Shown in pieces: positions 1-60,890 of a stretch of 64,000 nucleotides of DNA. The DNA is taken from positions 15,872,001 to 15,936,000 of the forward strand of contig OX387193.1 in the NCBI GenBank assembly GCA_947561395.2, in the 5' to 3' direction. The notes below the pieces were generated by a model. That model made no database searches, had not been told where the DNA came from, and saw nothing but the letters and a program-made list of their open reading frames with translations. How positions within the stretch are numbered: the first letter of the stretch is position 1; the number at the start of each line of letters is the position of its first letter. Source of the stretch: Buxus sempervirens (taxonomy: Eukaryota > Streptophyta > Magnoliopsida > Buxales > Buxaceae). A program made the translations under genes and the position numbers.

Positions 1-297
1 TAATTGATTATCAAATAGTTTCTTTGCTTTAATTGTTGTAATTGGAAATTGGTGATACTCGATCTCTTCTAATTGTTCAAGCATCAGAAATGGGAAATTG
101 GACTCTGGAGGTTGAAGGCTTCAATTGCAAAGTTCAAGATTCATTCTAAAGAGGTATTCTTCTATTTAATTTTCTGATTTTAAAATTAGTATAAATATTA
201 TTATTATAAGTAAGTCTCTCATTCTACCTTTCTTATAAATTAGTATCACCAAATATTTATTATAATATTATTTATTAAGAATTTTTTTTTCAAAAAT

Positions 298-833
298 TTG
301 ATAATGAACCCTAGGTATCCTATGTTTTTTGACACTGAAGAAAGGGAATATCTTAGACCCCTTTCTGACCCAACATTTTTTGATGATATAACCCAACCCC
401 AATATAATGACCCTCCCATCCAAGATCTTGAAACTGAATTGCCTTCGCAAGATATGGGATTGTCTTCCCTACCACCTAGGAACACCAAGAGGAGTAGAAC
501 CTCCGGTGTTTGGCTCAATTTTACAATTGAAAATGTAGGGAGTGAAGAGAGGGCAGTGTGTAACCATTGCAAAAAACATTTTAGTTGTAAAGGAGAAGGT
601 GGCACAGGCCACTTGAACTGGCATTTGCATAAATGCCTTCCAAAACATGGCCAAATTGACCCTAGGCAAACCCAAATTTCTACTAGTAGTGTTACTATGA
701 GTAATTTTGTTTTTAATCAAGAAGAAACTAGGCTTGAAATAGTAAAGTAGGTAATTCAAGAAGAATTACCCTTTAGATTAATAGATTCTAAAAGATTTAA
801 CCGTTTAATAAAATTATTTATTAACAATTTTCT
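298..833 (+). pseudogene. hAT-family transposase N-terminal fragment with BED zinc finger
   Basis: The open part encodes about 150 residues. The region around residues 70-113 has the BED-finger pattern: an aromatic VWLNF start, CNHCKKHF, then HLNWHLHKC. This is the DNA-binding head of plant hAT transposases (Ac/RICESLEEPER type). The open frame meets a TAG stop at 748-750. The same frame then continues with EELPFRLIDSKRF, which resembles the conserved ELPF segment that follows the BED domain in these proteins, so the copy is broken by a stop and then lost. The RNase H-like catalytic core and the dimerisation domain are absent. The AT-rich DNA upstream (1-297) looks like the untranslated leader of such elements. 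It cannot be an active transposase. Domesticated BED proteins exist, but nothing here suggests domestication. Confidence 0.75.
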
Positions 834-9239: not shown

Positions 9240-10373
9240 GGATATTATTTTTTTTTTTTATATTTACAATTTATCTTTTGAGGTATTCAACATAGGGATG
9301 GCAACGGTTCAGTTAAACCGACAAACCGAACCGAACCAAACCTATTAGGATCGGTTTTGAGTCTTTAATAAACGGTTCGGTTTTGGTTTTTAATTTTAAA
9401 AATCGATGCGGTTACGGTTTAGTTACGATTTTTAGGTGAAACCAAACCGAAACCGAACCAATTATGTATTATATGTACAAGCTTTGAGTTGCACAATTGC
9501 AGAACCCTTTAACTGATTAGCTCATTAGGGATGACATATCCCTCCTAGAGTTTAGTAGTCTTGAATGGTTATTGAAACAAAAAATTTCACTTGAATTTTC
9601 CTTTTTCATTGTACTTCTATGGAAATTCTTTTGATACAATGTTTCATTAACACATCCCTGTGTAGACACGATAAAAAAATAATATGAATTTAATCTATCT
9701 GAACTTCCAAAAAAGGAGAAATGGTTCGATTCGGTTACGGTTTTAAGAATATGAAAGTTAAACGGTTTTGATTTTAAAATTAGTAAACCCTAATGGTTAC
9801 AATTCGGTTATAGTTTCAATTGTAAACTTGTCGGTTTGGTTTTGGTTTTACAAACCGAACCATTGCCGTCCCTAATTCAACCATCCCGCTTTCCTCCTAA
9901 AGTTTTCAAAATACCAATTTACCACTTAAGGTTTCATGTGAGTAACAGTCTGCCCCCTTTAGAGGTTTGTCTATTAAAAATTTTATAAGCGTTTATGAGG
10001 TGGCAAGAAATAAAAAATATATTAACAATTCTTCCCTTATTATTTTGATTATTTATAATTAAATATCAAGATTACCTTTTAGTGGAGTGGTTCAATGTTT
10101 GTAGTAGTGGTTCAATGAACAATAACCAAACCTAATTAACATCTGTCTTTTTGGTACTCAAGGTCTAAATCAAGCCCTTTTTTATTTTAAATGTAAATGA
10201 AAGAGGCAAATTTATCAATTAACAATTTCTAAGTGTAATTTTAAAGGTTAAACGTGTAAAAGGAGGAGATTGTTATACATAAAAAACTTCAAGGTGGTAA
10301 ATTGGTATTTGGGAAACCTCATGAGGGAAAGAAGGATTATTGGAAACTTAAGGGGGTAAAATATAAATATCCC
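9240..10373. mobile_element. Foldback element with a nested hAT MITE
   Basis: The two ends are inverted copies: CCAATTTACCAC at about 9935 answers GTGGTAAATTGG at about 10298, and GGATATT at 9240 answers AATATCC at 10372. The left arm is interrupted by the hAT MITE at 9293-9874. Removing that insert restores the arm alignment. The target duplication is not clear, so the class (Mutator-like suspected) is inferred from arm style only. Confidence 0.6.
9293..9874. mobile_element. Non-autonomous hAT element, CGGTTT subterminal type
   Basis: Terminal inverted repeats TAGGGATGGCAA and TTGCCGTCCCTA (one mismatch) are flanked by an 8-bp duplication, ATTCAACA / ATTCAACC, with one mismatch. Both ends carry dense CCGAACC / GGTTCGGTTT words, typical of subterminal transposase-binding arrays. 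It is 582 bp long with no open frame, and lies inside the left arm of the foldback element at 9240-10373. Confidence 0.85.
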
Positions 10374-16576: not shown

Positions 16577-16829
16577 TAGAGGCATGTGCCATGTGCTGCC
16601 GTGTCATGAGCGGAACTGGCAGGTGAGGCTGAGATCTGGTCAGGTTTAAGTAATTTTTGAATTTTTTTTGGATTTCATGGATTGATTTTTGTGCCCTTTG
16701 AAATATGAAATATTTACGAAAATACCATCTCTTTTTCCTAACTCAATAAATCTGTTTTATTTATTTTTGGTTAGTTTCTTCTTTTGTATGCGCTGTAAAC
16801 TTGAGTATTGGTATGAAAGCATTTTCTCT

Positions 16830-17080: not shown

Positions 17081-18130
17081 CATACTTTCGTTATGTCTGC
17101 GTACAATTTTTTCTGATTTCAAGTTGGATGTCTCTGAGATATTTTAGCTTTAAAATCAGTTAAAACTTATTGTGTCAATTGAAATTTCATATCATTATCA
17201 ATGTTATTAATTAAATCATGCAATTGAGATGATCAAATTTAAAAATCACAATCACAAATTTCTCCAATTAATTTCAACTTATATCCAAGTATTGATTGAT
17301 TCAAAGTTAAGGTAGTGAAGGATTTTAATTTGAGAGCGTCCAACCAATTAAAACTTCATGTGTTTTTTAAAATTCTATATCATCGTCAAGTTTGTTAATT
17401 GATTTATGTAATTATGATAATCAGTGTTTCGAGTTTCGGCAGCACGCCGCTGAAATTTTGATTTTTTCTCCCAGCGAAACATTTCACTGTGGGAATTTGC
17501 TAGGTAATTTTTCTGGCGATTTTTTAGCGAAATGGGGTGGCGTGCAGAGCGAAACGGGCTTAAAAAATACAAATTTATTTAATTTTTATTAGCAAAACAC
17601 ACGGTGTGTCAGCGAAACGGAGTGGTATGCGGGTGAAATTTTCCCAAAATATAAAATAACCCAAATGTTACCCATTTTAAATTTTCCGTCGTTTCGGTGA
17701 CACGCCGACTCGTTTTGGCCGATGGGTGTTTCGCACCGAATCAGTAAACCTTAATGATGATTAAATTTGAGATCTAAATTGAGTTTAAGGTCATGATTGG
17801 AGGGAATCCAAATTCATCTACATTTTTGCTTCCTACCAAAAAAAAAAAAAAAAAGGATCTAGATTTTTGCTTGGAAATTATGGCTGGTAATTAAAGAACA
17901 AAAATGTAACTTTTGACTAAACTCATGGTTTAACTCTGGCCCAACATCCAAGACATTGAAAATGACATGACCAGTAATAGTTTTGTAATTAAGAAAGACA
18001 AGCAAGGCCATTGAGGTAAGAGTAACTCTGAAATACAGGAATGGCAGCCAATGGATTCAAATCTCAGGAATCCCAGCAATCCGCCGTGGTTTAAAGGTCA
18101 CCCCCAAAACCTCCTCTTGTTTGTAACTCC
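17081..18130. other. Intergenic DNA upstream of the FLZ gene
   Basis: 17418-17750 is built from repeated GCGAAAC / GTGTTTCG words and looks like an old repeat of unknown class. The rest is AT-rich. No gene was seen. Confidence 0.5.
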
Positions 18131-18133
18131 CTC

Positions 18134-18140
18134 TTTATAA
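18134..18140 (+). promoter_or_regulatory. Probable TATA box of the FLZ gene
   Basis: TTTATAA lies 100 bp before the start codon and is followed by a CT-rich leader (18150-18215), the usual layout of a plant core promoter. Confidence 0.55.
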
Positions 18141-18240
18141 CCTTCACCTTCCTCTCCTCTTCCTCCATAACATCTCTCTCTACATCTCTACTTCTCTCCC
18201 CTCTATAGAGCTCTTTTGTTCTAGTTCTCAGTACCCTTTA

Positions 18241-19064
18241 ATGGACTCTTTGACCTTCCGGGGACCGATGAGACGGCCTACTTTCATCGAAGATGATGAT
18301 GGTTTGGCTTCTGTTGCAGACATGGAGGCTGGGTTCTCTGGGAATCATCCGATCTTCACGAAATCTTCTTGTTTTAATGCGTCAAGGAGGAAGGGGAGTT
18401 TCAGATCTCTTTCTTTCGCTTCTGCGTCTTCACCGCGGTCGTCCAGGTTCTATGACGTTAAGTACGAAGAACCCCATTTCCTTGAAGCCTGTTTTCTCTG
18501 CAAGAAGCCATTAGGAAATAACAGAGACATCTTCATGTACAGGTTAGCTACAAACAAAGAACCCCACTTCATTGTTTCTCGTATTTTTAGTTTGTCTCTG
18601 ATTTCAGACACATCAAGTTCAAGTCTCTTTCTATGCCTTTTGGTTCAGGAAAAAGGACAAAAAAAAAAAGGCAATTTTTTTCTGTAATACCATGTCTCTG
18701 AATTCTGAGACTTTAATCAATGATTTCTGAGATACCCAGATGGGATTAGAGCGTTTGGTGTTTGATTTCTTTTAAATCGTGAGTCGATTTTGATTTTTGG
18801 ATTGTTCTTGTTTCTGAAATGAGTCTTCGGTGAGAGCTGGGTTCTGAATAACTTCTGATGGGTGTTTTGGACCTTTGATTTTGCAGAGGGGACACTCCAT
18901 TCTGTAGTGAAGAGTGCAGACAAGAACAAATAGAGATGGACGAAGCAAAAGAGAACTGGAACCTCTCTTCTTCCATGAAAGCATTGAGAAAAGACCAGAG
19001 GAAATCTAGCCCCAACAAGGCCCAGAATTACCCTGTAAGGGCTGGTGCTGTTGCAGCTGCTTGA
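18241..19064 (+). CDS. FLZ: FCS-like zinc finger (FLZ / DUF581) protein, two exons
   Basis: Exon 1 is 18241-18542 and exon 2 is 18887-19064. The intron has a GT donor at 18543 and an AG acceptor (TTTGCAG) at 18886. The joined frame encodes 159 residues. The FLZ domain spans about residues 78-125: [31 protein letters not shown] and QIEMDEAKE, with zinc ligands C84, C87, C107 and C111. The intron falls after the MYR motif. The N-terminal half is serine- and basic-rich and likely disordered. FLZ proteins are plant-specific adaptors that bind SnRK1 kinase subunits, and some are controlled by ABA, sugar or energy state. Length, motif order and the C-terminal AVAAA-like end fit the family. The start codon is the first ATG after the TATA box and opens MDSLTF. 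I see no damage, so I take it as functional. The exact paralogue cannot be told from sequence alone. Confidence 0.93.
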
Positions 19065-20443
19065 CTTGCACTAGACCTTGAAAGATATAGAACGACCAAA
19101 ATAAGATTATAAGACAAAACCTCCAGAAGTTTAAAAAGGAAAAAACTACGGGTTTGAATCCATGTGGAGCAAAACAGAAGAGGATCGAGCAAGAGAGAAA
19201 GATGATAAGCCTCCATTTTTGAGAAATTTTGCTTTAACTTTTGTGAATGTTTATAAGAGAAATAACCCTTGGTTTGATCTTGTTGTGTAATGATCTTTTC
19301 CACTACTTTTTTTTTGAATTTAAATTTATTTTGGTTACTCTGTAAAATCGCAAGAGTAATAGAAGTTTTCATGGTTTCTCATCTTTTTTTCTGGGTTTCT
19401 CTCAACCGTAGATGATCTGAATCCTCCTTTCCCTTCCTCCTCTCTTTGGTTTGTTATTTTTATTTATTTATTTATTTTCCCCCTTCAGGGGAAGGTATTC
19501 TGGGTTGTCCCATCAGGGTTCGATTGGGTGTTAACACGAGGGCTTCATTCCCTATAGGCTATATAGCCTAGATTGAAGAGTGGAGTGGCCACCCAATCAA
19601 GGTAGGCAGTTCTCGTTTATATGAGAAGAGATCTTCTCTGTTTAATTAGCCACTTGGATAATATTTCAACTCATTAAGGCCTTTTAATATGGGCTGATTT
19701 GCAATAAGTTTTTCCAGATGTGTCAGTGGCAGTCTAATTTCATGTGTATTTTGCCACATGGAAAGATTTTTATTTGGGAATCTTAAGTTGGTGTTAAAGA
19801 TTCAAAAACCCACTTGGAGAAATAAGAAGGCCCAAGAAAGGGAAAAATAAATAAATGGGATCTGCTTTTATATTTGTTGGAGAGTGATGTGCAGTTGCAG
19901 GCTTGCAGAAACTTAGTGAGCTCTTACCGCAGGACTGATCAAAGAAGATTTTGCAGAATTGATAATTAATCCAAAGATTGGGCAGAAGGGACCAATTCCA
20001 TGAACTTTTGCACTAGATGCAGTGCGTCAAGCTTAATTAGATACAATAATTTATGGTAAAAGTGACCTATAAAGCCAATGGGGCATGGGGATTTCCACAT
20101 ATAGGGATGGCAAAATTTGACCAAACAGGTTAATCTACTTGTTTTAATGGGTTCTGAGTTAAGATAACGTGTTAGTGCCCTTGGCCAATGCAAACACTGA
20201 TATGTGACGATGAACCCAGACTTCCTAGATTTTTTTTCTTTTTTCCTCTTCTCTTTGATGTTACTCAATTGAGTTGATTTCTACACCCATAAAAAATTTA
20301 TTTTGGTGGCAGAAACTGCTTTGTTACTTGTTTGTTCCATGCATGTCTACCGAAAACTCTTCTTTGAATATTTTTGAGTTGATTATGCCATCATTTACTG
20401 CACTTTTCATTCCAGTTCTAGTTCCAAGGACCCTTTTCTCATA
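19065..20443. other. 3' flank of the FLZ gene and non-coding DNA
   Basis: Probable 3' UTR to roughly 19400, then unassigned sequence. TAGGGATGGCAAA at 20104 resembles a single hAT end but has no partner. Confidence 0.4.
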
Positions 20444-20882
20444 GGGTAAATTGGTTTCTAGTGATAAATTATCAAAATAATTCAGATTCAATCGACAAAA
20501 TCTCGATAATTGGTTTTTAATGATATTTTTTTAAAATAATTGAGAATCGGTGTCATTTTACTATTCATGGTTTCTTTAAAATATGCCCTAAAAGACTTTG
20601 AAAACCTTTTCACTCATTTTGTTATAAATGAAGTTTGCAAGTCTTTTGAGGGCATTTTTGGAAGAAAGTTCTCAACAGACTTTGAAAACCTTTTCACTCA
20701 TTTTGTTATAAATGAGGTTAGCAAGTCTTTTGAGGGCATTTTTGGAAGAAGGTTTTAAGGAACAGTAAATTAATACCGATTCTCAATTATGTAAAAAAAA
20801 TATCATTAAAAACCAATTACCAAGATTTGGGCGACTGAATCTGAATTATGTTAATAAAATATCACTAAAAACCAAATTTCCC
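20444..20882. mobile_element. Mutator-type MITE, family M1, well-preserved copy
   Basis: Long terminal inverted repeats of about 110 bp (starting GGGTAAATTGGTTT, ending AAACCAAATTTCCC) are flanked by a perfect 9-bp duplication, TTTCTCATA (20435-20443 and 20883-20891). The centre is a tandem pair of an approximately 80-bp unit, each opening with AGACTTTGAAAACC and closing with GGCATTTTTGGAAG. It is the same family as 7924-8276, which has the unit only once. Confidence 0.88.
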
Positions 20883-20891
20883 TTTCTCATA

Positions 20892-28204: not shown

Positions 28205-29335
28205 ATCTACTTCGTCTCCCTCTTTATGGTCCCCACTTGTGTCTCTATGTGTATTGAGAGATTTCAACGTGATTTTATTTGGGAAGGGTCTGGTGCAAAC
28301 TAGGACCATCTGGTATAGTGGGAGGAGGTTTAAGGATAAAAGTAAAGGGACACTGCATTTGGGTAATATTATGACTCATACTTTAGCACTTCTATGCAAG
28401 TGGTTCTGGTGCTTTATCACGGAGAGGGAAGGTTTGTGGAGGAAAGTAATAGCTAGCAAATATGTGCTTCATAGAAACAGTTGCAACATCAAACTTAAGG
28501 TCAAAATGACTCAAACGAGCCTTGGATTTCCTCTTTGTTTCCACCTTTTTTCCCTTTCACCAGATTCTGGATTGGTAATGGGATTTCCATTGCCTTTTGG
28601 TTGAATCATTGGTGGAAGGAATGTCCCCTCCACCTATCATTTCCTCAACGTTTTATCATTTCTTAAATCTGCTTCTGTCACAAATATTTTGACTTGGCCT
28701 AAATCAGGCTTAAACTATAATTCTCAGTTCATGAGAGATCTAAGGCCGCTGATCTTCTGGAACTCAGTTCCTTACTCCCTCTTCTTAACAATGTTGTTAT
28801 TGTGCCTAACATCCTTGACACTTGGGTGCTGACTCCTGAATCTCGGGATTGTTTCACTTCTAAATCCTTCATTTCTTACTTTTGTATGGACAAAGAGGAC
28901 CCTCTTGCCCATTTTTCACTCCTTAATATTTGGAAGTCTAATGTCCCACCTCATGTCAAAGCTTTCACTTGGTCTGCGTTGCTTTACAAAATTAGTATTT
29001 GTGACATGATTCAAAGCAGAATGCCTATTGCAGAGTTGTCTCCTGAAAAAAATGTGTGGTGCATCATTAGCAGGTGGAGTCAGTGGATCAGCTCTTTATG
29101 CAATTTGAATTCTCATACAGATTATGGATGGCATTTTTTCAGTTGATCGTATGTCTTGCTGAGTGCTTGCTACCTTAATTGATATTTGAGCAGTGGAAAT
29201 TTACATATATCCAGAAGAAAGGGAGGCTTCTACATTATCCTGCCCCCCTATGCTTTCAATTTGTAAATATGGAAAGAGAGGAATACAAGAAAATTTTTAG
29301 GGAACTTCATCTTGTTGGGAAGAGATCATCGAATC
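28205..29335 (+). mobile_element. L1-type LINE fragment, 3' part of ORF2
   Basis: Matches the end of plant L1 reverse transcriptases and the following zf-RVT region. FMVPTCVSMCIERFQRDF and GNIMTHTLALLCKW are followed by LWRKVIASKY. Then comes a zf-RVT block with IWKSNVPPHVKAFTW. Several frameshifts and stops separate these pieces. The catalytic RT core is absent. This older copy was later hit by the LINE at 29354-30009. Confidence 0.8.
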
Positions 29336-32412: not shown

Positions 32413-33076
32413 TAGAGGTGGCAATGGGTCGGGTTGATGCATGGGGTTAACAAGCCAAGGCTCAACCCGAACCCGCCCGTTTAATAAACGGGTTGGAATA
32501 TCCCAATCCTAATCCAACCCGCCAACCCGTTTAAATAATTTAAATTACTATTAAAAATTTTAATTCATTCTAATATCAAAGTCTATACAAATTCTATTTT
32601 TAATTCATTTTAATATTAAATGACACCTAACAAGCATAATAACACAACAATCATTAAGATATAACTAAAATAACATGAAGAAAAGAACTAAAACATACTA
32701 ATAAAGTTTTAAAAGACTTTGCTTGTGATCAATGCGTCAATTTATATTAGTAGAAGCTAAGAAATTTGAAATATTTATACATAAAAAGTCTTTCTTCATT
32801 TTATCATTTGTCATTATATATTAAAAGAAGAAAGATTGAATAGCCACAACTATTGTTAATATAATTTTCTAAGCTTTTATTACACAAAAAAATAAATGGG
32901 TTGTAATCGGGTCATTTCGGGTTGAGGGGTCAAACCCTAACCCAACCCGTTTATAATCGGGTTGAGAATTCATAACCCTAACCCAACCCGTTTGTTGAAA
33001 CAATCAACCCTGACCCGCCTAAGACTGGGCGGGTTTGGGCGGGTTGGCGGGTCACGGGTTACAATTGCCACCTCTA
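32413..33076. mobile_element. Non-autonomous hAT element, AACCCG subterminal type
   Basis: Terminal inverted repeats TAGAGGTGGCAA and TTGCCACCTCTA are perfect over 12 bp. They are flanked by the perfect 8-bp duplication AGCAGCAG (32405-32412 and 33077-33084). Both ends carry dense CAACCCG / CGGGTTG words. It is 664 bp and AT-rich inside, with no coding capacity. Confidence 0.95.
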
Positions 33077-37694: not shown

Positions 37695-39239
37695 TCATAT
37701 TTGATCTATCTTCTCCATCAGGAAAACCAGTAGGCCATACTTTTCCCAACGTTTAATTGCAAACTGCATACGATTATTAATTAATATACTTCATAAAATA
37801 TTGTAAACTAAACTGGGAAATTATTGCAACAGATGATGATATATACATACACCAAAGTTATGGCTAGCGAAGCCAATTCTATGAATCTCACTCCCACAAG
37901 TGACATCATCATAGCACTCATTAAGGATGGCCATACAAGGATAATATGATGCACTATATGCCATCTCGAATTCTTTCTTCGCGTTATCTGATAAGGCATT
38001 ATACACACCCAACATGCCCTGTCATGGCACAAGAAAAGTACACTCTCAAATGCATATATGATCAATCCAACTTGGTTCTTGTAATTGTGATAGACATATA
38101 CTGTTATATTAAACCACGTAATATCAACATAGAAATTTAAAATGAATGTAATTCACCTTTGATGATATGGTCTTCACTATGTTCCCAATGATATGGTGCA
38201 TGTATCTAAGAAGTAATTAGATGGGCGATAATCAGATATGTGTCAAGTCAATAAAGCAAGTGCAAATACAATATTAATTATAAGACTTGGTAGTTACCTA
38301 GCTCCCCAAAAATACCACTCTGGTACTCTTGCTCTAGTGTTGTGGCAAATGTAAACAGCGAACCAAGGGCAACCTGTAACGCCCCGAACCCGGGTCTATG
38401 CACAACAAGCACCAAACCCGAATCCGAAGTGATACTGGGCCCAAAACTACTAATTACCAGACATTTAAATTCAACAAATTGCATTAATTATCAGAGTGCG
38501 GAATTAAAGACATTAATTTCATCAATATGCGTGGCTAAATATAACCATCAAAATAACTCATCAATGTAAATTCATAAATCTGGTAAATGGGTTTTCTAAC
38601 ACACTTTCTCTTATATTCAATTAAATCATAAACTCTCTATCAAGGTACATTTATATCAACCTTTAATAGAAAGATCTAAACTAAATAAGAAAAATCCTCA
38701 GCTCAGTAATCTGCGACTCCCCCTCGAGTTAACCCCAAGGACGCTCTCACGTGGAACAGCTGAAAAATAAGATAAAGAAGTAGGGTGAGATACAACTATC
38801 TCAGTAGGTAACAATGCATGCTAGAAACAGTTTATATATAAAATTAATCATTCATGCACGATAAAATAATTGAGTAGTCACGGTCGATAAGAAGAACGAG
38901 TAATCACCATACGAAACCAAAATCTAATCAGTGTTTGGAATAAAGAGAGTTTATTATGTAACCTTAGTTTCAATTAGAAAGGCAATGTAATATAAATATC
39001 ATCTAAAGGATTTTCCAATTCACTGCCAGTATTGTCTCCCTAAAATAATTCTATAATTAATTCATGGCTCATTTATATTCTATTTTAGAATCATTCAAAT
39101 CAAATTACAGCTAAACCGTTTAATCAAACTCTTCTTATTCAAATGTAGATCACGTCATTCATAATTAATAGTAAATCTCAATCTGATAACAACATTCTCC
39201 CATGTAGGATGTAATCACGTAGTAATCACATTTACCCTA

Positions 39240-39840
39240 CATAAGGTCTCTCCCGCAGGAGTCATCATATCTCACCCACAGGTGGTCACATCTCATCCGC
39301 AGGTGGTAATCACATATATTTCCCTTGTAGGATGCAATCACATCGTGATTACATCTGCCCCACAAGAGGTCACATCTCTCCCGCAAGAGGTCACATATCT
39401 CCTCTGTGGGATGCAATCCAATCAGGATCACATCTCTCCCAACAGGAGGTCTCATCTCACCCGCAGGTGGTCACATATCTCCCCTGTGGGATGCAATCTA
39501 ATCACGATCACATCTCCCCCAACAAGAGATTTCATCTCACCCGCAGGTGGTCACATATCTCCCATGTGGGATGCAATCCAATCACGATCACATCTCCCCC
39601 AACAGGAGATCTCATCTCACCAGCAAGTGGTCACATATCTCTCTTGTAGGATGCAATCTAATCAGGATCACATCTCCCCCAACAGGAGGTCTCATCTCAC
39701 CCGCAAGTGGTCACATATACATTTCTCTTGTGGGATGCAATCACATCGTGAATACATCTCCCCCACAAGAGGTCTCTCCCGCAGGAGTTACACATCTCAC
39801 CCACAGGTGGTCTCATATCTCATCCGCAGATGGTACAATC
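39240..39840. repeat. 80-bp tandem array inside the solo LTR
   Basis: The word GATGCAATC recurs at 39331, 39410, 39490, 39570, 39650 and 39734, a period of 79-84 bp. Units alternate CACCCGCAGGTGGTCACAT and TCTCCCCCAACAGGAGGT. The long open frame across it is a by-product of the array. Spacer-like unique segments are absent, so it is not a CRISPR array. Confidence 0.92.
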
Positions 39841-40498
39841 TCTTATAGCCATCATGGCATTCAGTCCACAATCCAATTATATTTTGAGAAGGAAATTACC
39901 TATATAGAATCCTTGTAATCATTTCAAGTGAATTTGATCTTCTTTAAACCTCAGATTGTACTAAATCATAAAACAAGGTGGTTAAATATCTAATATGAAC
40001 TTTTTAGTATAATTGGCTTTCAGAGACACCTTAAGAATAATCTTAGAGAAGTGTTACAAGGAGTGGAAATCCAAATAACCTATTTTATAATGATTTGGGA
40101 CTAAGAATGTCATAAAATTTTCAAAATACATTTTGGATGAGTGGAATAGTCTTAGGATTTCCAATAAGGTCACCATACCAAAAATCAATCAATTTTGAAA
40201 CAGAAAGTTTCGGACCCCAAAAATATTCTAAGTCTGATTAAAACGTTGACTTTTGGGTATATAATTTTTCTAGACAAATCTACAAGGAGTTTCGGGCTCA
40301 AAATTTGGTTGTAGTCTATTGAAGGGTAAACACATCTCCTAGAATTTTATGGGCTTCTGAATCACTCATCTGGGTATCAAACCCAAAACGGGCTTTTTGA
40401 TAAAAACCGGGAAAACTGGAAATTTAGGCATGAACTGGAAAGTTGACTTTTTATTGGCTGGGAATTGGACCTAAGAAGTATTTTTATTGGTTCCAAAT

Positions 40499-41542: not shown

Positions 41543-41908
<366 letters not shown>

Positions 41909-42369: not shown

Positions 42370-43113
42370 CTAATTATATGGGAAATATGCTGAAAGGAAC
42401 AACTTATGATGGTAGACAATTAACCTTGACCACAATATCAAACTTTGGCGAGCCATCTTGGTAGGGCCCATTAACAATGAAATAACAATGGAGAACTTTA
42501 ATTTTGCTTGTTAGGGCCCACTAAAACCTTTTCTTGGGAGATATGGTGACTGTGAGGAGATTTGGCGAGCCACCTTGGTAGTTGTGTAGCGGGGTTCTCG
42601 AAGCGGCTGGCTACGGTGATTGACTGTTTTCCCTTTGGATTTTGGTGGTTTGGAAGTCACTTTTCCCCATCCTCTCTACTGGTTTTGCTCAATCAGTGGT
42701 ATTGGGTGCGGTTTGTGTTTTTCTCTCTCCTATTCCTCTGGTGATATTCTGTCTGTTTGCAAGTTGTTTCTTTTGCTTCGGCTCCCTTCTTTCTCCTTAT
42801 CATGCTCCCCAGTTCTCTCTCTCCATCGTCTTTCTTGTCCGATCTTCCATCCCCTTGATTTTTCGTTCCTCTTTAGGTCTCCCTTTCATAAAGCCCCCTC
42901 CCTTTTCACTCTAAGCATCCTTATCTTCGTCATCGTCCTTTTCTCCGTGGGGTGGAGCCTTTTTCTCCAATTTTCTCACTCGGGTGGGTCTTTTTCCTCT
43001 TAACTTCCAGTTGAAAGTTTCCGCTTCCATGGCTATCATGAGATAAGCTTTCGATTTCCTTGGGGGTCCTGTGGGGTTTTGGCGTGTATCTCCATTTGTT
43101 TTCACATTCTGCT

Positions 43114-44099
43114 ATGGAGGAATTATTTGACAGGTTCCACAATCTACTAATCCCGGCTAGACCAAAAAAGGATTTTTCCCTGCAAGGAGAGGAAAAAACT
43201 AGACTTGCAAAGCGGTGGAGGAATCTTCTCCTCATTGGAATATGCACATCATCGGCCTCCCTAAACTCGGTCCAGAACTTCATGGAGAGAGTTTTGAAGC
43301 ACATGAACATCATCGATATTTCTAGGGTCTCAGATATACGTTTCTTGATTTCTTTTGTTGACGCTCAAGACCTCACCAAAGTTTTGGCACAGAGGCCATG
43401 GACCATCAACAACTTATTCACCTTGATGGAACACGTTAGGTCTCCAGATATAGTAGCATCATTTTCCTTCTCCAACTTTGTGGTTTGGACGCATATACTG
43501 GATTTACCTAAAGCTCTCATGGATGAAGATATCGTCAATCACTTGGGAAATGAATTTGGTAAAACTCTAATGGTTGAATTTCCTTGTGATGGTGCGCTAG
43601 AACCTCTTTGCATCAAATGGGAATTATCGATGATGGAGCCGCTCCCTCCTGGCGTGTTTGTTGAAGATTTGGAGAGCAACAAAATTTGGATTTCATTCTA
43701 CTAAGAAGGGATCCCGGATTTTGTTACTCTTGTGGGTTGATAGGGCACAATTTAAACTCCTGTGTTAATCTTAAGCCAGGGAAAGCTTTCAAGCTTCTTG
43801 AGGTGGATGATGTCCCAAGATATTCATTGAAGAACTGTACCAGTAATCAGCAGCACCATGCTCAAATTGCCGGAGTGGAGAGCCATAATCAAGGCCAGGA
43901 GACAACTGCTTTTGCTAAGGGACCATCATCCCCGATTCAAATTCAATCAGGGTCCTCGAATTGGGTTCAGAACCCGCTAGCTATATTGGATCCAAGTTTA
44001 CAAGATGGGCTTCCTGGCCCATCATCAACAAGGGACTTTGGATCAATAACGGATTTTGGGTCCTCCAATATTACCATGGAAGCCCAAAAGTTTAAATAA
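43114..44099 (+). pseudogene. LINE ORF1: DUF4283 domain and CCHC zinc knuckle
   Basis: The start MEELFDRFHNLL opens a DUF4283-type domain: RWRNLLLIG, RFLISFVDAQD, RPWTINNLFTL. This is the nucleic-acid-binding part of plant LINE ORF1. It is followed by a knuckle, CYSCGLIGHNLNSC (C-x2-C-x4-H-x4-C). The frame shifts once near 43690, between the domain and the knuckle, where IWISFY ends and the next frame continues. The proline- and serine-rich tail ends at 44099. In intact elements this protein coats LINE RNA and escorts it to DNA. Confidence 0.82.
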
Positions 44100-44511
44100 G
44101 TCTCTGATGCAAGCAGCTCTAGGACTTTTGAGGCCCAATCGTCCATCTTCACTTTCTACATGTTAGATGGATCAAGGAATGTAGGTAAGAAAGCTGTGGT
44201 GAATTTTCTTATGACTGACTTCTTCCCTAAAGAGTGGCAGGATAGAGATTCTACAAAGGATACTCAGCTATCTGCATTGCGACATCTTGTGCTCTCTGAG
44301 AAGAAGTTGGAGGCCCCTACTAGGAAAGGTTGCTAGAAGGGTCGAGCTTCCAGAAGATCAGCTCAGCAAAACATTGATGCTCACGGAGGATTCTGCCAAC
44401 CCATGCCCCCCAGGAATTTGCTCAAACATCAAAGAAAAGAAAAACTTCTTCTTCTGAAGGGTCTCACTTTGCTTTTGTTTCTCGTATTAAGAACATGAGT
44501 ACCCCGACCTC

Positions 44512-47500
44512 ATGAAAATCTTTTTCTAGAATTGCCATGGTCTTGGTCAGACCTTGACGCAATTTTTTTTGAAAGAGCAACTTTTGAAATGCAATCCAGA
44601 TCTCATCTTACTCTTTGAAACTTTTGCTCCTTTAAGATTAGCTCCTAAAATTCTGAAATTAATTGGTTTTGGAAAAAATTTCTTCGCATTACCTGTTGTC
44701 TGTAGGAAAGAAGGCTTTTTGATATTGTGGAAGTCACAAATAAGTGTGACTGTGTTGTTTACTGATGTGTGGTTAATCTTACTACAAATCTCGGCTAGGG
44801 GATTTACTTGGTACACATGTTTCATTCATGCGAGTTCCAAAATTGACATTCAAGCACAGCAGTGGCAATCAATTTAAAACATGGCTTCCAGTTTCTTTGT
44901 CCCTTGGATGATCTATGGGGACTTCAATGCTGTATTACATCATTTTGAAAAAAGAGGGGGATCTGTTATTAATTGTCAGCAACAAAACAATTTTTTTGAG
45001 TTTATTCAAGATTATAAGCTCATTGAGGTCCACATGAAAGGGCCTAGGTTTACATGGTGCAATGGGCAGCAAGGGCTAAGAAGAATCTCTGAGAAATTAG
45101 ATTGTTTTTTTTTATTTGCTGATTTCTTTGACCACTTTCCTCAACTGATCTCTTATTCCCATCCGATCTTCTTGTCTGACCACTGCCACATTTTAATTGA
45201 GTTGTGTCCAGTAAACAGGGAGAAACAAAGGCCCTTCAGATTTGAGGCTATGTGGCTTGAAAAAGAGACATGTCAGCTTATGGTTACTAATTCTTGGCAA
45301 TGGTCTGATTGTGGTCGCCAACGATAGTTATTTGAAAAATTCTCTTCTTTGCTTCGAATTTAAAGAAATGGAACAAGGAAAAGATTGGATGTATTTTCAA
45401 AAGAAATAATCAACTTTTGACTTCCCTGCAGAGAATTCAAGAAATTATGGAGAGAAATCCGTCCCCGATGTTGGAAAGGCAGGAGGAAAAAGTTTACCAA
45501 GAATATGTGAAGGCTCTAAAACAAGTTGAAACCCTCTGGTTTCAGAAATCAAGAATTGCATGGCTAAAAGATGGAGACAGAAACACTTTGTTTTTTCATA
45601 AGTCCACTTTGGTGAGAAGACAACGCAATCATATTTATTCACTAAAAGCTGAAAAGAATGAAGAAGTATCATCAAGAAAGGGTCTAGAAGAGATGGCAAC
45701 AAGGTACTTTCAAGATATGTATACTTCCTCTCCTTTTTGGTCTAATCTCCAAGGTAATTACTTCTGAACAAAATGATCAGTTGACCTCTATTCCTTCCCC
45801 TGAAGAAATCTGGAACACGGTCAAAGGTATAGGTGCATTTAAATGCCCGGGCCCGGATGGGTCCAAGGTATTTTCTTCTATCAATTCTGGCAAACTATAG
45901 GACAAGAATTTTTTATTTCAAAAGTGTTGCCTCCAGGTTTGAGCCACACCTTTATTTCCTTGATTCCTAAAATGCTTCATTTGAGAAGAATCGGTGATCT
46001 TAGACCAATCAGTTTGTGCAATTTTAGTTACAAAATTGTTTCAAAAATTCTGGTTAATAGGATTAGGCCTTTTTTATTAGAGATTATCTCGCCTAATCAA
46101 TCGGCTTTTGTTCCTGGCAGGGATATCAAGCATAACATCTTGATCAATCAGAGATTTTTCACTATTTTGCGAAAAAGAAAATGAAAAAGCCAAAAAAGAA
46201 TCTCTCTTCCAAAAGAAAAAAGAAGGGCCCTTAGGGGATGTATGCCTTGAAGATCGATTTCTCAAAGGCATATGATCGGCTGTCTTGGGATTTCTTGAAG
46301 AAAGTCCTTTCTGCTTACGGTTTTAGTGAGGAAGTCATTCAACTCATAATGGCTTGTGTGACATCGATAACATATAGCATCCTCCTCAATGTATCTCCTA
46401 CTGGAAAAGTTTCTGCTGAGAAGGGTCTTTGTCAAGGGACCCTTTGTCCCCCCTACCTTTTCATCCTTTGCCAGCAGACTCTCTCCTTGGCAATTCATAG
46501 GGCTGAGGAGGATGGTAGGTTTAGAGGGTTGAGGGTGAGAAAAGGTGGTATGGCTATATCACATCTGATGAACGCCGACGACGTCGTGCTTTATGGTTTT
46601 AATGAGGGTCGGGAAGCTCATAATTTGGTCCGTTTGATTTATAAATACTGTAGTGAATCTAGGCAGGAGCTGAATCATCAAAAATCCTCTATCTTGTTTA
46701 GCAAGGACTCATCGGTTTGTAGCAGAGTTGAAATTAAGAGAATTTTCTAGATTGGGGATGGTTGGCCAATGGATTCATATTTGGTAGTTCCTATCTTGTG
46801 GAACAAGTCGCTACTTAAGGACTGTAAGGCATCCTCCAAAAAATGGCAAATCGGCTTGCTAGCTAGAAGACATTGTTCCTTTCGCAAATGGGCCATATTA
46901 CACTCATTCAATCTGTAATTTCTGCACAACTATTATATCTAATGAGTTGCTTTTTATTGCAGCAGGAAGTACTGGACAAGATGGATGGAATGGCGAAAAA
47001 TTTCTTGTGGAAGAAGGGCGACGGTCAAGGTCTACATTCTATATGTTGGGAACACATCACTCAATCATAGCATAGTGGAGGACTTAACATAAAAAGAGCT
47101 GGGACCATGAATAAAGCTCTAATTTTGAAAGCCGAGTGGCAACTTCAAGTTGGTTCAAAAGGGCTTTGGAAGGACTTCATGAAAAACACGTACTTCCAAA
47201 ACAAGAATTGCGTTGAGGCTTCTTCCAGTATTAGCCATTCATTTGGCTGGAAACATATTAGAAGGGTTGTTAGTTGGATTCAAAAAGGTAGTGAGTGGAC
47301 GGTGGTGAATGGTAGTAGGATAGACATTTTAAATGATAACTGGGTGAAGGAAACTACGAACAAGTTATAATTCCAAAGGAATACTTGTAAGCACCTCATT
47401 TTTGCACCCCTCTAAAAAGCCTGAAAGCAAAACCCTAAAAGACAGGTCTAAACCCTCAAGAGCAAAATATGACTTTCCCTCTGAGTCTAAATTGATTACT

Positions 47501-53360: not shown

Positions 53361-54132
53361 TCTATACTATGTATTAAAGTAAACTACTTCTAGCTGACGT
53401 GGCAGCTTCGGGCAGCCTCAGGTGTCCGAACCTCTAATAATTCCTCTCCCTCTCTCTCTCTATCTCACGAACCAAAATTTTAAAATCCCAAAAGGTTATC
53501 TACCGAAACTTTTTAAGAAACCTCTAATGCCAAGGATGTTTCTTTCCTAAAACATTATTGAATTTTTGGGGATTTTATCCGAAAAGTGGAATCATCAAAA
53601 TTTTAAAATCCCTAAAATGTTATCTCTCGAAAAATTTTAAGGAAACTCTAATCGGGTTTTTCTCCTAAAATGATTAGAAAGCTGATTCATCGAATATATA
53701 TAGAGCAAATTAAATCTATTCCTAAAACGGAAATTGGAATCATTGAAGATAACGATGCTACTTCTACGACACATCTGATTGAAAGTAGAATCATTATACC
53801 AATTAATTAAGATACTAATTAAATTTGAAATATAACATTCATTATAATATCAGTAAATGAAGTTATATTTATTTTTAAATGTTAGAATGAATTTATTATA
53901 ATATAATTATAATTATAATTATAATATTATCATATAATTAATTTATAATTATAATATTATAATTAATTTATAATATAATTAAATTTCTAATCTAAAATTA
54001 ATTATCTTTTGTCTATTAATTTATAATTATGTAAGTAACTAATTATTCTCCTTATCTATTAAGAATTGTGGTACGTGACATATTGAATTCAATATGCGAT
54101 AACCGTGCATCATACGGGCTACCTACTGCTAG
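53361..54132 (+). mobile_element. Probable non-autonomous Helitron
   Basis: Starts TCTATACTATGTATTAAAG after an A, and ends with the stem CCGTGCATCATACGGG followed by CTACCTACTGCTAG. The base after CTAG is G, not T, so the exact end is uncertain. The interior is AT-rich with TATAATTATAAT runs. Just beyond the end, CTAGGGAAGTGTGCCTA occurs at 54129 and again at 54205, pointing to a further, partly duplicated copy. Confidence 0.5.
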
Positions 54133-54799
54133 GGAAGTGTGCCTAATATTAATTATAATTATAATATTATAATTAATTTATAATATAAGCCAAAGGGATT
54201 ACTAGGGAAGTGTGCCTAGCTGACATGGCAGGCTTGGGAGGTTCTGGCTGACGTGGCGGGTTTGGGTAGTTCGGATGACACGTGTAATCCTAACAAAATT
54301 TGAGAACGAAATAATACAATTTCTCCTGCACTCGGAGTAGAAAACGACGCTTCGTCTTTTGCCTCTGTTGATTTGCTTTAAGAGTCTTCCTCTCCTCGTC
54401 AAAACCCCTCTTCTCTTGGCTTGAGGTGACATGTAAACGGTAAGAATTTTCCTTTTTTTTTTTTTTTCTTTCTCTCTTCAAGTATTGTCCGAAAGGCTTC
54501 CAAACCCTCCCTCTTTCCGTTCTCTTCGACGAAGGAGGCTAATCACTCCTAGCTTCCCTCTCTAGCATTCTCCTCAACGGTGACTCTTCAATAATGTATT
54601 CAGTCTCCGTCTTTTCTCGGATCCGGTGATCCGCTCATTGGAAGAGCTGAAGCAAGCACCGGAAGCACGACCGTTATTGTAGCAGCAAATGTGGATCATA
54701 CTTCTACTATTATCGTGGCAAGCTCTTTACCTCCGTTTCTCTCCCTCTCACGCAAGCCTCAACGTTGTTCTCTTCCTCTCTCTCTCAAGCCTTGATTTG
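54133..54799. other. Helitron-like debris and CT-rich stretch
   Basis: Contains the repeated GGAAGTGTGCCTA words, then a GC-richer region (54300-54790) that reads like genic DNA but matches no family I know. Confidence 0.4.
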
Positions 54800-55177
54800 T
54801 AGAGCTAGCAAAAAGTGAACCGACCCGACGGGTCAACCCGATTATAAACAGGTTGGGTTGACCCGTTTATTAATTGGGTTGGGTACGGGTTGAGGTTTTC
54901 CCAACCCGTCCGAAATCGAGTCAACCCAATTACAACCCGTCCACCCGACGGGTTACCCGATTAAAGTGTTTATAAATTTACTTAATCTCTAGGGTTTCTT
55001 TCGCTTTGTCTATTTCGTTTTGTCTTCGCCTCTCGCAGTCTTGCCCTCTTCTTCCATTTCCATTCCGCAGCTCCAGCGACCCAAGTTCATGAAAGAGTTC
55101 CCTCCTGCGCCTGCGGTATTTTCGAAAGGGAGATCATCTTCATCCTTCATCCTTCAAGACTTAGTTTAAAAGGAAAA

Positions 55178-55339
55178 ATGAAGGGACAAACTTCTGCAGA
55201 TGTTGAGGTTTGTGTGGATGCAGACACGCTGTGGGAGGTCTATGGAAGCATCAAACTAGGGAAGTCCTTCCTGTTTTGCTTCCAAACGTCGTTCAAAAGC
55301 TAGAGGTTGTGGAAGGAGATGGAGGGGTCGGAACTAGGG
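55178..55339 (+). pseudogene. Captured Bet v 1 / MLP-like gene fragment (5' part)
   Basis: Begins at ATG with MKGQTSADVEV, then TLWEVYGSIKLGK. After a one-base frame change it continues LLPNVVQKLEVVEGDGGVGT. This matches the N-terminal third of Bet v 1-fold proteins of the norcoclaurine synthase-like / major latex protein group, including the glycine-rich EGDGGVGT loop that lies over the ligand cavity. Sequence similarity stops right after GVGT, near the usual intron position of this family. The downstream two-thirds are absent. The fragment lies wholly within the hAT element and in the same direction as the HSP70 piece. It is not a working gene, but a short peptide of about 40 residues could be read from its ATG. 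Confidence 0.82.
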
Positions 55340-55795
55340 CCGGCAAAAAGATTTTGGGTTAATTGTTATATCGTGGCTTTCGCGTGATTTTCAACTGTCA
55401 AGTGAGCTTTGGCTCGATTTTTCTAAATCTTGAACTTCATTGTTCTATGATTGTTGGATCCTGCCTCTATAAGTCGTTTTCTTTGTATCACAACGGTAAT
55501 AGTTTTGCCTTAGCAAGGAATCTGCAGTGGTGGATCGTCTGTTTCTCTCCCTCTCTCTCTCTTCCCTACACTTCTATTTTGTTTTATTATTAATTTATTA
55601 TTATTGGTTTTTGAGGATGCCAAGTTACTCGATCCTTCATCTCCGGCTAGGGTTTATGTTCTATATTCTCTATATTTTGGGGGGTTAGAAATAAGAGGTT
55701 CGATTGTGTAGTTTCTCGGGTGATCTAATTTTTGTTTGTGTGCTTATCTTAGTGGCTTGCCCTTATCTTAATTGTCTCTCTGTGTTGTTTCGTAG

Positions 55796-56025
55796 ATGCG
55801 AAGCGTCTGATTGGTAGGAGATTTAGCGAAACATCTGTCCAGAGCGACATCAAGCACTGGTCCTTCAAGGTCATTGCTGGTCCTGGTGACAAGCCCATTA
55901 TTGTCAACTATAAGGGTGAAGAGAAGAGTTTCGCTGCAGAGGAAATCTCTTCAATGGTTCTTGTGAAAGATGCGTGAGATTGTAGAGGCCTGTCTCGATT
56001 CCCCAATAGAGAATGCTATTAAGTA
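55796..56025 (+). pseudogene. HSP70: Captured HSP70 fragment with its upstream splice site
   Basis: Exon sequence starts after TTTCGTAG and reads (D)[49 protein letters not shown]. After a one-base insertion it continues MREIVEA. This is the start of exon 2 of plant cytosolic HSP70 genes, which have a conserved intron within the aspartate codon before AKRLIGRRF. The CT-rich DNA before 55796 looks like that intron. Keeping the intron edge shows capture from genomic DNA, not from mRNA. The piece covers only part of the ATPase domain and ends near 56025, before the AYFNDSQRQAT segment. Confidence 0.9.
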
Positions 56026-56622
56026 AAAATTTTGTCAGAGATGGTGGTGGTACTAAACCCAGTTTCACGCATGAAGATATTGGTGTATGTGATTCAGCAG
56101 TGGTGCTTTGTGTTTGTGGTTTTGTTGCCTGTGATGGTGGTGTTTGTGTCATTGTTGAAGATGGTCACTGTAATGGTTGTTGCTTTTGGTAGTAGTAGTT
56201 TAATTTTTTTTTTTTTTTGGGTAGTGGTAGTAGTTTAATTTGATGCAATAGAATTAGTTGTGGTGGTTTAAATTGAATTTCTTGAGAAAGTTACAGAAGT
56301 ACAAGTTTGTAAAATGTACGCCCTTTTTCAAAATCCTTTGATGTATTTGGGAAAACCGAACCTATGAAAGCCCAAAGGTTTAATAATTGGAGGCCTTTAA
56401 CTTATTTATTATTTTTTTGCAGAAAAAAATAAATAAATAAAAAATAATCTGGTTGGGCGGGTTGAACCTGTTTAGTGACGGGTTGGGTTCGGTTTGGCAT
56501 TTTTGTAACCCGCCACTAATCGGGTTCAACCCGAACCGACCCGATTAACTTTAACCCGATTATGACCCGAACCAAACCCTGCCCGTTGCTGGCTCTATTG
56601 ATTTGTATCTTCACTCGCCGAC

Positions 56623-59600
56623 TGTAAAACCCTTGATTTTCCTAAAATAAAATAAATCAATAAATAAATAATTAATGAATAAATTAGAGAGATTTAGAAG
56701 TAAAGGTAATTAAAAAGGAAAAAAAAGGAATCTAACTTATATTATAAAGGAGAACCTGAAGAACTAATATTTAAGATTGAAATCTCAAATTATGAAGAGA
56801 AATAATAAAAATAATAATATTTGAGGAATTGAGAAGAAATTTAAAGATTAAGAAGGGGAAATCAAAGAAAAGGGGTATTTTGGTCATTTCCAATTGGTCA
56901 AATTAATAAAAGGAATAAAATAATTAATTATTAAGTTAATAAACTAAACTAGATCAAATTTTAGTTTAGTTGAATTTAAAATAAGGAATTTAAGGTTTAA
57001 AAGAAGGAATAACGACTTAATTGTAATTATACTATTTAGGATCCTTAATTTTAGTAAAATGGGAGAATAATAAGTGTTTAATTAAAATTTAAAATTTAGG
57101 ATGAGAATTAGCACGAAATTTAATTAGGAAATTTTTAAGAGAAAGTTTAAGGAAAATAATTAGGAAGAGGGGTAAAGGAGGAAAGAGTTTTAAAAATTGA
57201 AGTGGGGATAACCTATTAGGGTTGCTTATTAAGTGGCATATAAAAGGGGAAGTTTAAGAGGAGTTTATGGTTTTCAAATGAGCCAAAATGAGGGGAAAAG
57301 AGAAGGGAAATCATGCCTAGACCTGGAGAAAAATAGGGGAAGAATAGAGAAAAGAAAAGAGGGTTTTATGAAGAAAGGGCAGTGTTGCAAATGGCCGAGC
57401 AGCCCTGTTCGAATGGAGATCTAGAACAATCCAACTGTTGGATCGGCCTCAAACTTGGTGGTTTTGATCTACACTCGAAGAACTACAATCTGAACAGTGG
57501 AGATTGAATTTGGAGAAGTTTAAAGGGGTGCGATCAAGCTATGAAAATCAGTGTACGATCAGATTTTCGGAAGAAAGAATTCTCATAATGAGGCAAGTAG
57601 CAAACACCTTTTGGAAAACTGGAGACTGCATGATTTTCGTATGAATTTGATGATTAATCGTGGTTTACGTGATTCAGAATTCGTTTTAAAAAGTTTAGGG
57701 AATTATAAATCAAGTTCGTTTACTTTCTCTTTAAAGAATTTGGAAAAGTGTTGAATAAAAGAGATTAAATTTAGTGAGAAAAACTTAGATAAATTTTTAG
57801 TCACTGAGATTAGGTTAGGATTGTCTTAGAGATATTTTAGAATGAAATTTAGATGTTTAGAAACAATTTAAAACCATAGAAATTTGAGAAATTTCGGAAA
57901 TCTAAAAAACCCAGAAAAACAGTGAAATTGACCGAGTGCTCGAGTGGCCGCTCGAGCGCAAATACAGGTGCCCCGCTTGTGTGTTTCAAAACAGAATTAA
58001 AATTTAACCTGATACCCAACGCCCGGATTACCACTCGAGCACCATTGCGAGCAGCTTAAGAAGAAACTTACCAGTAGAGGTTGCCCAACAGACTGCTCTA
58101 ACGCCCAGTCGAGCGGCATCTGTAAGAATTTCCAGATTTTTGAGATTAGCCCAAATCCATTTTTAATGATTTTTTTGGAAATTTTAAAGTTATAACACCT
58201 ATAATTAGGATAATTTGAGATGTAAGAAGTGGCGGAATTAAATTTGGATTAAAAGATAGTAATTTGGGACAATGATTTTAAAGATGAAATTTTTGGAGAT
58301 GTTTTGAGTAGAAAGAGGTCACAACCTATTTAGATCTGATTTTGGGTAACTTAACCTATTCTTAAACTTCAATATAGACCTAAGTTACCCTCTGGATGAA
58401 CTAAATAATAGAGTTACTAAGTTTTGACACCTTAGGCTCTAAATGAGGGAAAATTTGGATATTATTAGATCATAGAAATAGGGAAGTTTTAGACAAGAAT
58501 TAGAAACATTGTTAGTGCCTAGGAATGTGAACTAAAACATGAAAAAAACTTAAATAATAACGACTCATGCACAGCATCAATTGTAACATTTGATTAAAGG
58601 ATTTATTCGCGTTTTTAATGACAGAATTTATTATTCTTTCTATTACGGTTGAGTGATACTACTTCCTGTGGTTGAGTTGATACTTACTTTTACGGCAGAG
58701 ATGGGTAATCCTCTATTGTAGAGATGTGTAATCCTTTACGATAAAGATGTGTAATCCTTTACAGTAAAAGTGTGTATTCCTCCTACAGTAGAAGTGTGTC
58801 CTCCCGCGCTAGAGATGCAATTACTACGTGTTTCATTAATGAGATTATTGACACGTATATGTCTCTACGTATGTGGGTTGTTGTGTCATGTATGGGATTT
58901 GGCTATTGCCATATTATTTATTCTGCTATTGCGGTTATGTTTCTGGCACGATTGTGTCTCCGCTATTGTGGCTATCTCATGGTGTATGCTTTTATTTTAG
59001 TATTGACTAATATGTTATTAAGTTATTTAGAGTTTTTGGATTGTGAGTTGTGTCTAGAGGCTTAGCTCTTACATGGATTCATAGAGTAGCTAGTAAATGA
59101 AATTGTTTTATGGAGTTTCTTATTCTGTGTCATAGGCACTCCATCATCTCGAGAATGGTACCGCTCCTGTATTGGTCGGTCGCTACGTTACCTACTCCTA
59201 TATTGGTTGGTCCGTACATACTAACTTACTCTTGTATTTGTTGAGTACTTCTGTTGGGTGTCGAATAGCCTGTCCGGTATCGGCTGGTCCACCTATAAAT
59301 CAGTTAGGTACATATTAGCACATGTCTGTAGAAAACTTCGGTTTACAAATTTTATTAGTCCTATGATGTCACAGGTGTGGTTTGCTGATTGTTATGATTG
59401 GTGTATTATTATTTTTATTATCATTGACCTGGTTTACTCGCATACCTTATTAGTTGTTTTATAAAATTATGGATTGTTTTATAGCATGCATATTGCTACT
59501 TGTTATTAAACATTATTTCATGTTTCCGCACATAATTCTGATAATGAAATTAGAAAAAGTTTAAATTGTTCTATATTTTTAGTTGCTTTGGCCACATACT

Positions 59601-60061: not shown

Positions 60062-60346
60062 TGATAATCCAACTAAGTTTTTGGAAGCTAAAAATTTATC
60101 AATAATTGCGTAAGGTTAGCAGCCACTACCAGTAGGATGTTATCCCTTTATTTCTATGTGTTTTCCGCCAGTCTTAATGGCGCCATGGTCAACAAATTTG
60201 TGTCTCAGCATTAATGAATGCATAGCAAGTCGGCGTTGGTCAACATATCTGTGAGTGAAGGCGGAAGGTATGAATCAGATCTTTTTTTGGTTGATAGTCA
60301 CATTATTAATTTCATTTTAATTTGTCGCTACATATATTTTATTTAA

Positions 60347-60881
60347 GGGAAAATTACCATACACCCTTACTTTTAAAACTTTTTTCCACAAAACACTACC
60401 CTAGCTGCTAAATACCTACTTTACATTGTTTTTCCAGAAAAAAAGACGAGATGCCCCATTTCATATGTCAAAAGACTTAAAATGCCCATTTCGTCCCTTG
60501 ATATACGTTTTTATATTTAAAATTTTTGTTTGTATGAACCGCCTACAAATGAACCAATCGGTCCATTTAAAAAAAAACCCGATCTTCACCCCTTTTCAAC
60601 TCTTTAATTAGGTTAAATGTTAATTAGGTTAAAGAGTTGAAAAGGGGGTGAAAATCGGGTTTTTTTTTTAACATGAAACCTTAGGTTCATATAAACCAAA
60701 ATTTTAAATATAAAACCGCATATCAAGGGGCGAAATGGGTATTTCAAGCCTTCTAATATCTGAAATGGGGCATCATGTCTTTTTTTTTTTTTGAAAAAAC
60801 AATGTAAAGTAGGTATTTAGCAGCTAGGGTAGTGATTTCTGGAAAAAAGTTATAAAAGTAAGGGTATATGGTAATTTTCCC
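60347..60881. mobile_element. Mutator-type foldback element, 535 bp
   Basis: Nearly the whole element is one inverted repeat. Arms of about 260 bp start GGGAAAATTACCATACACCC and end in its complement, meeting near 60610. The perfect 9-bp duplication TTTATTTAA flanks it (60338-60346 and 60882-60890). A transcript through it would fold into a long double-stranded hairpin. It has no open frame of interest. Confidence 0.93.
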
Positions 60882-60890
60882 TTTATTTAA

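Follow-up and report, generated by a model that had tools for sequence, protein, structure and literature searches.

A probable Pack-hAT element with pieces of an HSP70 gene and of an MLP/PR-10 gene between its ends

The route by which cut-and-paste transposons capture unlinked genes is unsettled, and gap filling, fork switching and the fusion of neighbours have all been proposed. Pack-hAT is a named class, mentioned four times, in the study of Gisby & Catoni 2022 (PMC8903248), which surveys Pack-TYPE elements in maize and also in rice. In the accessible part of that study the gain of DNA is ascribed to the fusing of neighbouring insertions, similar examples are stated for hAT, and one subgroup of the PIF family carries an added second gene piece. 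Among animal Pack-TIRs, 208 of 370 are hAT elements (PMC8277862). A previous sequence-only reading of the locus described here presented gene capture by hAT elements as little known. This view has some ground, as the word hAT is absent from the main text of a 2026 review of plant gene capture, but the available text on Pack-hAT elements of maize, Hatvine-6 of grapevine, animal Pack-TIRs and a fungal hAT with histone H3 speaks against it. The Pack-hAT kind is already known, and the novelty of capture by a hAT was overstated in that reading. As for the particular combination, no report of HSP70 and Bet v 1 captured within a transposon was found in the literature searched.

The element and its class

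The window, that is, the whole 64-kb stretch of DNA analysed, was scanned throughout for pairs of 8-bp repeats, separated by 150-6000 bp and enclosing TIRs that match at no fewer than 10 of 13 positions, the left TIR being required to start with TAG, CAG, CAA or TAA. The scan returned three candidates, at 32413-33076 (13/13), 54800-56597 (11/13) and 53971-55589 (10/13). In 100 Markov-1 shuffles of the window, the mean number of candidates was 0.12 at >=10/13 and 0.01 at >=11/13. The candidate at 53971-55589 was discarded as a probable chance occurrence, its TIRs and TSD being all A or T but for one C. The features of the other two are collected in Table 1.

Table 1. Coordinates of the hAT elements found in the window and of the parts of the element at 54800-56597
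Feature	Position	Strand	Remarks
Element, complete non-autonomous hAT	54800-56597		1798 bp; perfect 8-bp TSD, TIRs, end arrays, no transposase
Left TSD TTGATTTG	54792-54799	.	
Right TSD TTGATTTG	56598-56605	.	Exact copy of left TSD
Left TIR TAGAGCTAGCAAA	54800-54812	+	11/13 against right TIR
Right TIR TAGAGCCAGCAAC (as read on - strand)	56585-56597	-	11/13 against left TIR
Left subterminal ACCCG/CGGGT array	54823-54964	.	Includes repeat families D2, D3, D6, D7
Segment upstream of MLP ATG; MLP leader/promoter or another gene	54971-55177	+	No Pfam match over cutoff in three frames scanned
5' fragment of MLP/PR-10 (S-norcoclaurine-synthase-like) gene	55178-55334	+	Frameshift near 55260; ATG-frame stop TAG 55301-55303
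hAT-terminus-like TAGGGCCGGCAAAAAG at MLP breakpoint	55335-55350	+	13/16 to the element's left end
T-rich stretch with TTTCGTAG at its end; putative HSP70 intron, 3' part	55351-55795	+	Protein homology begins directly 3'
HSP70 exon fragment, ATPase domain, AKRLIGRR...ENAIK	55796 to ~56023	+	Extra base near 55969; first-frame stop TGA 55975-55977
T-rich segment (T 0.40)	56024-56445	+	No Pfam match in two frames scanned (56010-56189, 56023-56235)
Right subterminal array	56446-56584	.	Includes inverted repeat I1
Second complete non-autonomous hAT	32413-33076	.	664 bp; TIR TAGAGGTGGCAAT 13/13; TSD AGCAGCAG; ACCCG/CGGGT arrays

Plant hAT elements have TIRs of the kind TAG(A/G)G..GGCAA, and Ac-like elements carry short subterminal repeats in both ends. 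The element at 54800-56597 has short TIRs of the plant kind, with a matching pattern at the ends of the second hAT, and is flanked on both sides by the 8-bp duplication. The latter may also be read as 10 bp, TTGATTTGTA; the 8-bp reading is preferred because the symmetry of the TIRs holds with 8 bp only. Short subterminal repeats are found in both ends: taken together, ACCCG and CGGGT number 10 in the 171 bp of 54800-54970, one in the 1475 bp of 54971-56445 and 8 in the 152 bp of 56446-56597. The perfect duplication, the hAT-type inverted repeats and the subterminal arrays claimed in the sequence-only reading are thus confirmed.

Two other types of gene-capturing elements were considered. Pack-MULEs have a 9-bp TSD and usually long TIRs, and Helitrons have neither TIRs nor TSDs. 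The first identity is ruled out by the 8-bp TSD and the symmetric short TIRs, and the second by the very presence of TIRs and a TSD. Transposase is absent from the element, as its longest stop-to-stop frame is 105 aa, and its movement would occur in trans, through a hAT transposase binding its ends. Captured coding DNA, consisting of the HSP70 and PR-10/NCS pieces, lies between the TIRs. We conclude, with a probability of about 0.85, that the element is a Pack-hAT, namely a non-autonomous hAT, presumably of a plant nuclear genome, that has taken up copies of DNA from two unrelated genes. The initial description of a transposase-less hAT element holding two captured gene pieces that point the same way is borne out by the TSD, the TIRs, the arrays, the homologies and the length of the longest frame.

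The same cannot be said of the age of the element. Its perfect TSD had been taken as a sign of recent mobility, a claim left without support by a simple calculation: at 5% divergence per copy, 44% of such pairs (0.95^16) would still be perfect. The perfect TSD is thus weak evidence of youth. Self-comparison of the window revealed no second copy of the interior of the element. The second hAT, which served as comparison, has ends of the same type and an A+T-rich interior, and it has two short subterminal stretches in common with the element (27 bp at 96% and 22 bp at 91%). The other matches of the element (E<=0.01, all of 48 bp or less) are internal to it or correspond to scattered sites of simple composition. 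Its end patterns had no match in viral contigs (two patterns) or in genome contigs (one pattern), collections of viral and prokaryote sequences that are uninformative on the number of copies in the plant.

Various other features were observed in the window. Single TAGGGATGGCAA sequences at 9293 and 20102 on the + strand resemble the ends of another hAT group and have no partner in the TSD and TIR scan. An open frame at 244-750 (+) weakly matches the BED zinc finger (16.1 bits, cutoff 20.6) and might encode the N-terminal part of a hAT transposase, or belong to a gene derived from one. As for retroelements, a LINE-like remnant is present at 43042-46750 (+), with DUF4283 and reverse transcriptase matches over cutoff and an endonuclease match under cutoff, in separate frames, and a weak zf-RVT match at 28721-29146 (+; 21.7 bits, cutoff 27.5) is perhaps part of another one. 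A match to ketol-acid reductoisomerase at 41543-41908 on the - strand (KARI_N, 26.9 bits, cutoff 20.6) corresponds to a gene exon or a stray fragment, and an FCS-like zinc finger at 18127-18687 (+; zf-FLZ, 40.5 bits) is likely a plant gene exon; together with the PR-10/MLP homology, it suggests that the DNA comes from a plant. Long self-inverted sequences at 60345-60883 (81% identity in self-BLAST) and 20443-20883 (75%) are perhaps fold-back elements, and a direct-repeat array with a spacing of ~80 bases, at 39165-39850, is open in more than one frame.

The captured gene pieces

The HSP70 and MLP pieces have the same orientation within the element. The first HSP70 frame (55798-55974, P0001) matches PF00012 with an E-value of 2.9e-11 and, on its own, PDB HSP70 chains with a best E-value of 7.5e-19. 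This frame is shifted after 57 codons. When the piece is joined over the 1-base frameshift, 74 of 75 residues match PDB HSP70 (E=8.6e-24), and since the match continues across the extra base, the piece is considered to span ~55796-56023. HSP70 relatives were found at 38 loci of viral contigs, with 37-55% identity, and only one of these loci (L001) served here, as a reference for HSP70. The peptide that follows the frameshift, taken alone, matches the L001 protein weakly, with scores at least as high for 114 of 2000 shuffled peptides; it is supported by the joined PDB read. Nine frames of the element were searched with Pfam: that of HSP70 gave the one match over cutoff, seven had no match at all, and a Peptidase_M78 match in one frame was discarded because its 12.8 bits fall below the cutoff of 22.

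The homology with HSP70 starts at an AG, immediately 3' of TTGTTTCGTAG. The 461 bp upstream of it (55335-55795) contain 44% T, and pyrimidines occupy 15 of the 20 bases that precede the acceptor-like TAG. To the eye, the residues encoded upstream in the same frame bear no resemblance to the single HSP70 relative with which they were compared. In plant cytosolic HSP70 genes, an intron presumably splits the Asp codon before AKRLIGRR. We found no statement on intron position in plant HSP70 in the literature searched; in the available portion of an HSP70 paper, the genes of subfamily A are described as having zero or one intron, with the exception of one gene. We strongly infer that the stretch before 55796 is the 3' part of an HSP70 intron. 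Such a start of the homology, at an AG preceded by a tract rich in T and in pyrimidines, makes capture of HSP70 at the DNA level, from a genomic copy, probable. The same features support as probable the claim of the sequence-only reading that the splice acceptor was kept. As for the intron-exon fragment that it proposed, the exon homology and the AG after a T-rich tract hold, but the frame is broken and the fragment reaches as far as ~56023.

The MLP piece was identified by reading it over its frameshift, with S-norcoclaurine synthase as the best match (E=2.7e-7). Taken alone, the N-terminal frame piece matches S-norcoclaurine synthase weakly (E=0.5), and the second frame piece matches a PR-10-type phytohormone-binding protein (E=3.8e-6). 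The score of the Pfam Bet_v_1 domain, 11.8 bits, is under its cutoff of 22.4. A Bet v 1/MLP 5' fragment had been proposed at the outset, which agrees with the PR-10/S-norcoclaurine-synthase homology, but its frame is broken. The homology extends to GDGGVGT or one residue further, which sets its limit at 55334-55338. In viral contigs, 85 stretches matched the pattern used to look for relatives of the MLP piece, and none was confirmed.

Assembly and coding potential of the element

The element would have been assembled in at least two steps, and the sequence found at the limit of the MLP piece offers a possible clue as to how. TAGGGCCGGCAAAAAG matches the left end of the element at 13 of 16 positions, in left-end orientation, and its right end at 11 of 16, and it starts within ~3 bases of the limit of the MLP homology. 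The pattern TAG[AG]G[CG][CT][AG]GCAA has five matches on both strands of the 64 kb, namely 55335 and the four true ends of the two complete hATs, and it was present in 2 of 2000 strand searches of the shuffled interior (54961-56440, 1000 shuffles), figures that flatter the site because the pattern was composed after the site had been seen. With a plain score against the left end, at least 13/16 was reached in 4 of 200 shuffled interiors, and a further site of the window, at 16746 of the - strand, where there is no known end, also matches at 13/16. Independently of these figures, a real end is favoured by the location of 55335, at the limit of the MLP homology.

We tentatively read 55335 as a fossil left end belonging to another hAT, one that carried the HSP70 piece and fused with its neighbour. 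In the likeliest form of this assembly, a hAT with the HSP70 intron-exon piece, whose left end would be 55335 and right end 56597, would have landed in the first exon of an MLP/PR-10 gene, or of a copy of such a gene, beside a hAT with its left end at 54800. The inner ends of both hATs would then have decayed or been deleted, and the outer ends (54800 and 56597) would have moved as a single unit, thereby creating the TTGATTTG duplication. A merger of two hATs, one of them already in possession of HSP70, follows a published model, with similar hAT examples reported (Gisby & Catoni, PMC8903248), and we give it a chance just short of even. Several observations argue against it. No ACCCG/CGGGT array follows the internal end, whose raw score was equalled or exceeded in 4 of the 200 shuffles just described. 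Moreover, no second GTCGGAAC was found with up to one mismatch on the + strand of 54700-56700, nor was a facing right end detected by pattern in the interior. That the two hATs fused across the MLP gene and left a fossil inner terminus at their junction is a tentative proposal, with the odds somewhat against it. If true, the fused hAT would preserve in its sequence a trace of how multi-gene Pack-hATs arise by fusion. What is new here, and the one feature that gives this element added interest, is the possible inner end.

Alternatively, a hAT may have been broken or abortively excised, and the repair may have switched template to the HSP70 and MLP genes, without the fusion of two elements. This explanation, which competes on the assembly of the element only and is compatible with a Pack-hAT, is also a possible one, to which we would give somewhat less than an even chance. 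For the majority of single-copy animal Pack-TIRs, gap filling is the proposed origin (PMC8277862), and it fits with the fact that the pieces are short and unrelated, with no complete inner element remaining. Alone, it predicts no terminus-like sequence in left-end orientation at one of the breakpoints, but the template might perhaps also have been switched to the element's own end, giving rise to the sequence at 55335. The perfect TSD is a further difficulty, as it indicates that the element or its ancestor transposed. Fusion and gap filling make different predictions on copies that hold HSP70 alone and run from 55335 to 56597. The presence of two gene pieces and a candidate inner end yields a sharp prediction, for which one genome search is sufficient; otherwise, this would be one more Pack-hAT.

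The sequence-only reading had envisaged a chimeric transcript, in which the MLP leader and ATG would be spliced onto the HSP70 acceptor. The acceptor-like TTTCGTAG with its pyrimidine-rich context and donor-like sites at 55208 and 55402 would be compatible with such an event, and a chimeric RNA from the element is possible. In contrast, a chimeric protein is unlikely because both captured frames are broken, with stops at 55301-55303 (TAG) in MLP and 55975-55977 (TGA) in HSP70. Splicing from the best-scoring donor-like site, 55208, would not keep the HSP70 exon in frame, and among the donors tested only 55212 gives an in-frame join, with a poor score of -3.42 and a product of 71 aa. Most likely the element makes no protein, and a functional chimeric gene is very improbable. 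It is also very improbable that MLP and HSP70 remnants which were neighbours beforehand came to lie by chance between hAT ends of separate origin: both pieces are indeed decayed, but an 8-bp duplication with TIRs at >=11/13 came up 0.01 times per shuffled window, and the arrays sit at the two ends of the element.

Comparison with known elements

The probable Pack-hAT identified in this study shares features with several described systems, as far as the available parts of the respective sources go. The fungal element of Dothideomycetes (PMC6710886) is likewise a hAT with an 8-bp TSD and a captured host gene. Its histone H3 gene has no introns, which points to the capture of a transcript or retrocopy, whereas HSP70 here looks genomic. 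Animal Pack-TIRs (PMC8277862) also have hAT ends around gene pieces, as exemplified by the 5' UTR piece in frog hAT-N8_XT; they are mostly single copy and explained by gap filling, and no two-gene case was seen among those described in the accessible text. Hatvine-6 elements of grapevine (PMC2528002) have common TIRs, with genic introns and exons in their variable region, but unlike the present element they have a transposase coding sequence in common. As for the Pack-hATs of maize (PMC8903248), they are similarly non-autonomous, with TIRs, an 8-bp TSD and captured coding DNA. Their end sequence is different, as presumably is the plant, and the element described here combines pieces of two different genes with a candidate internal end.
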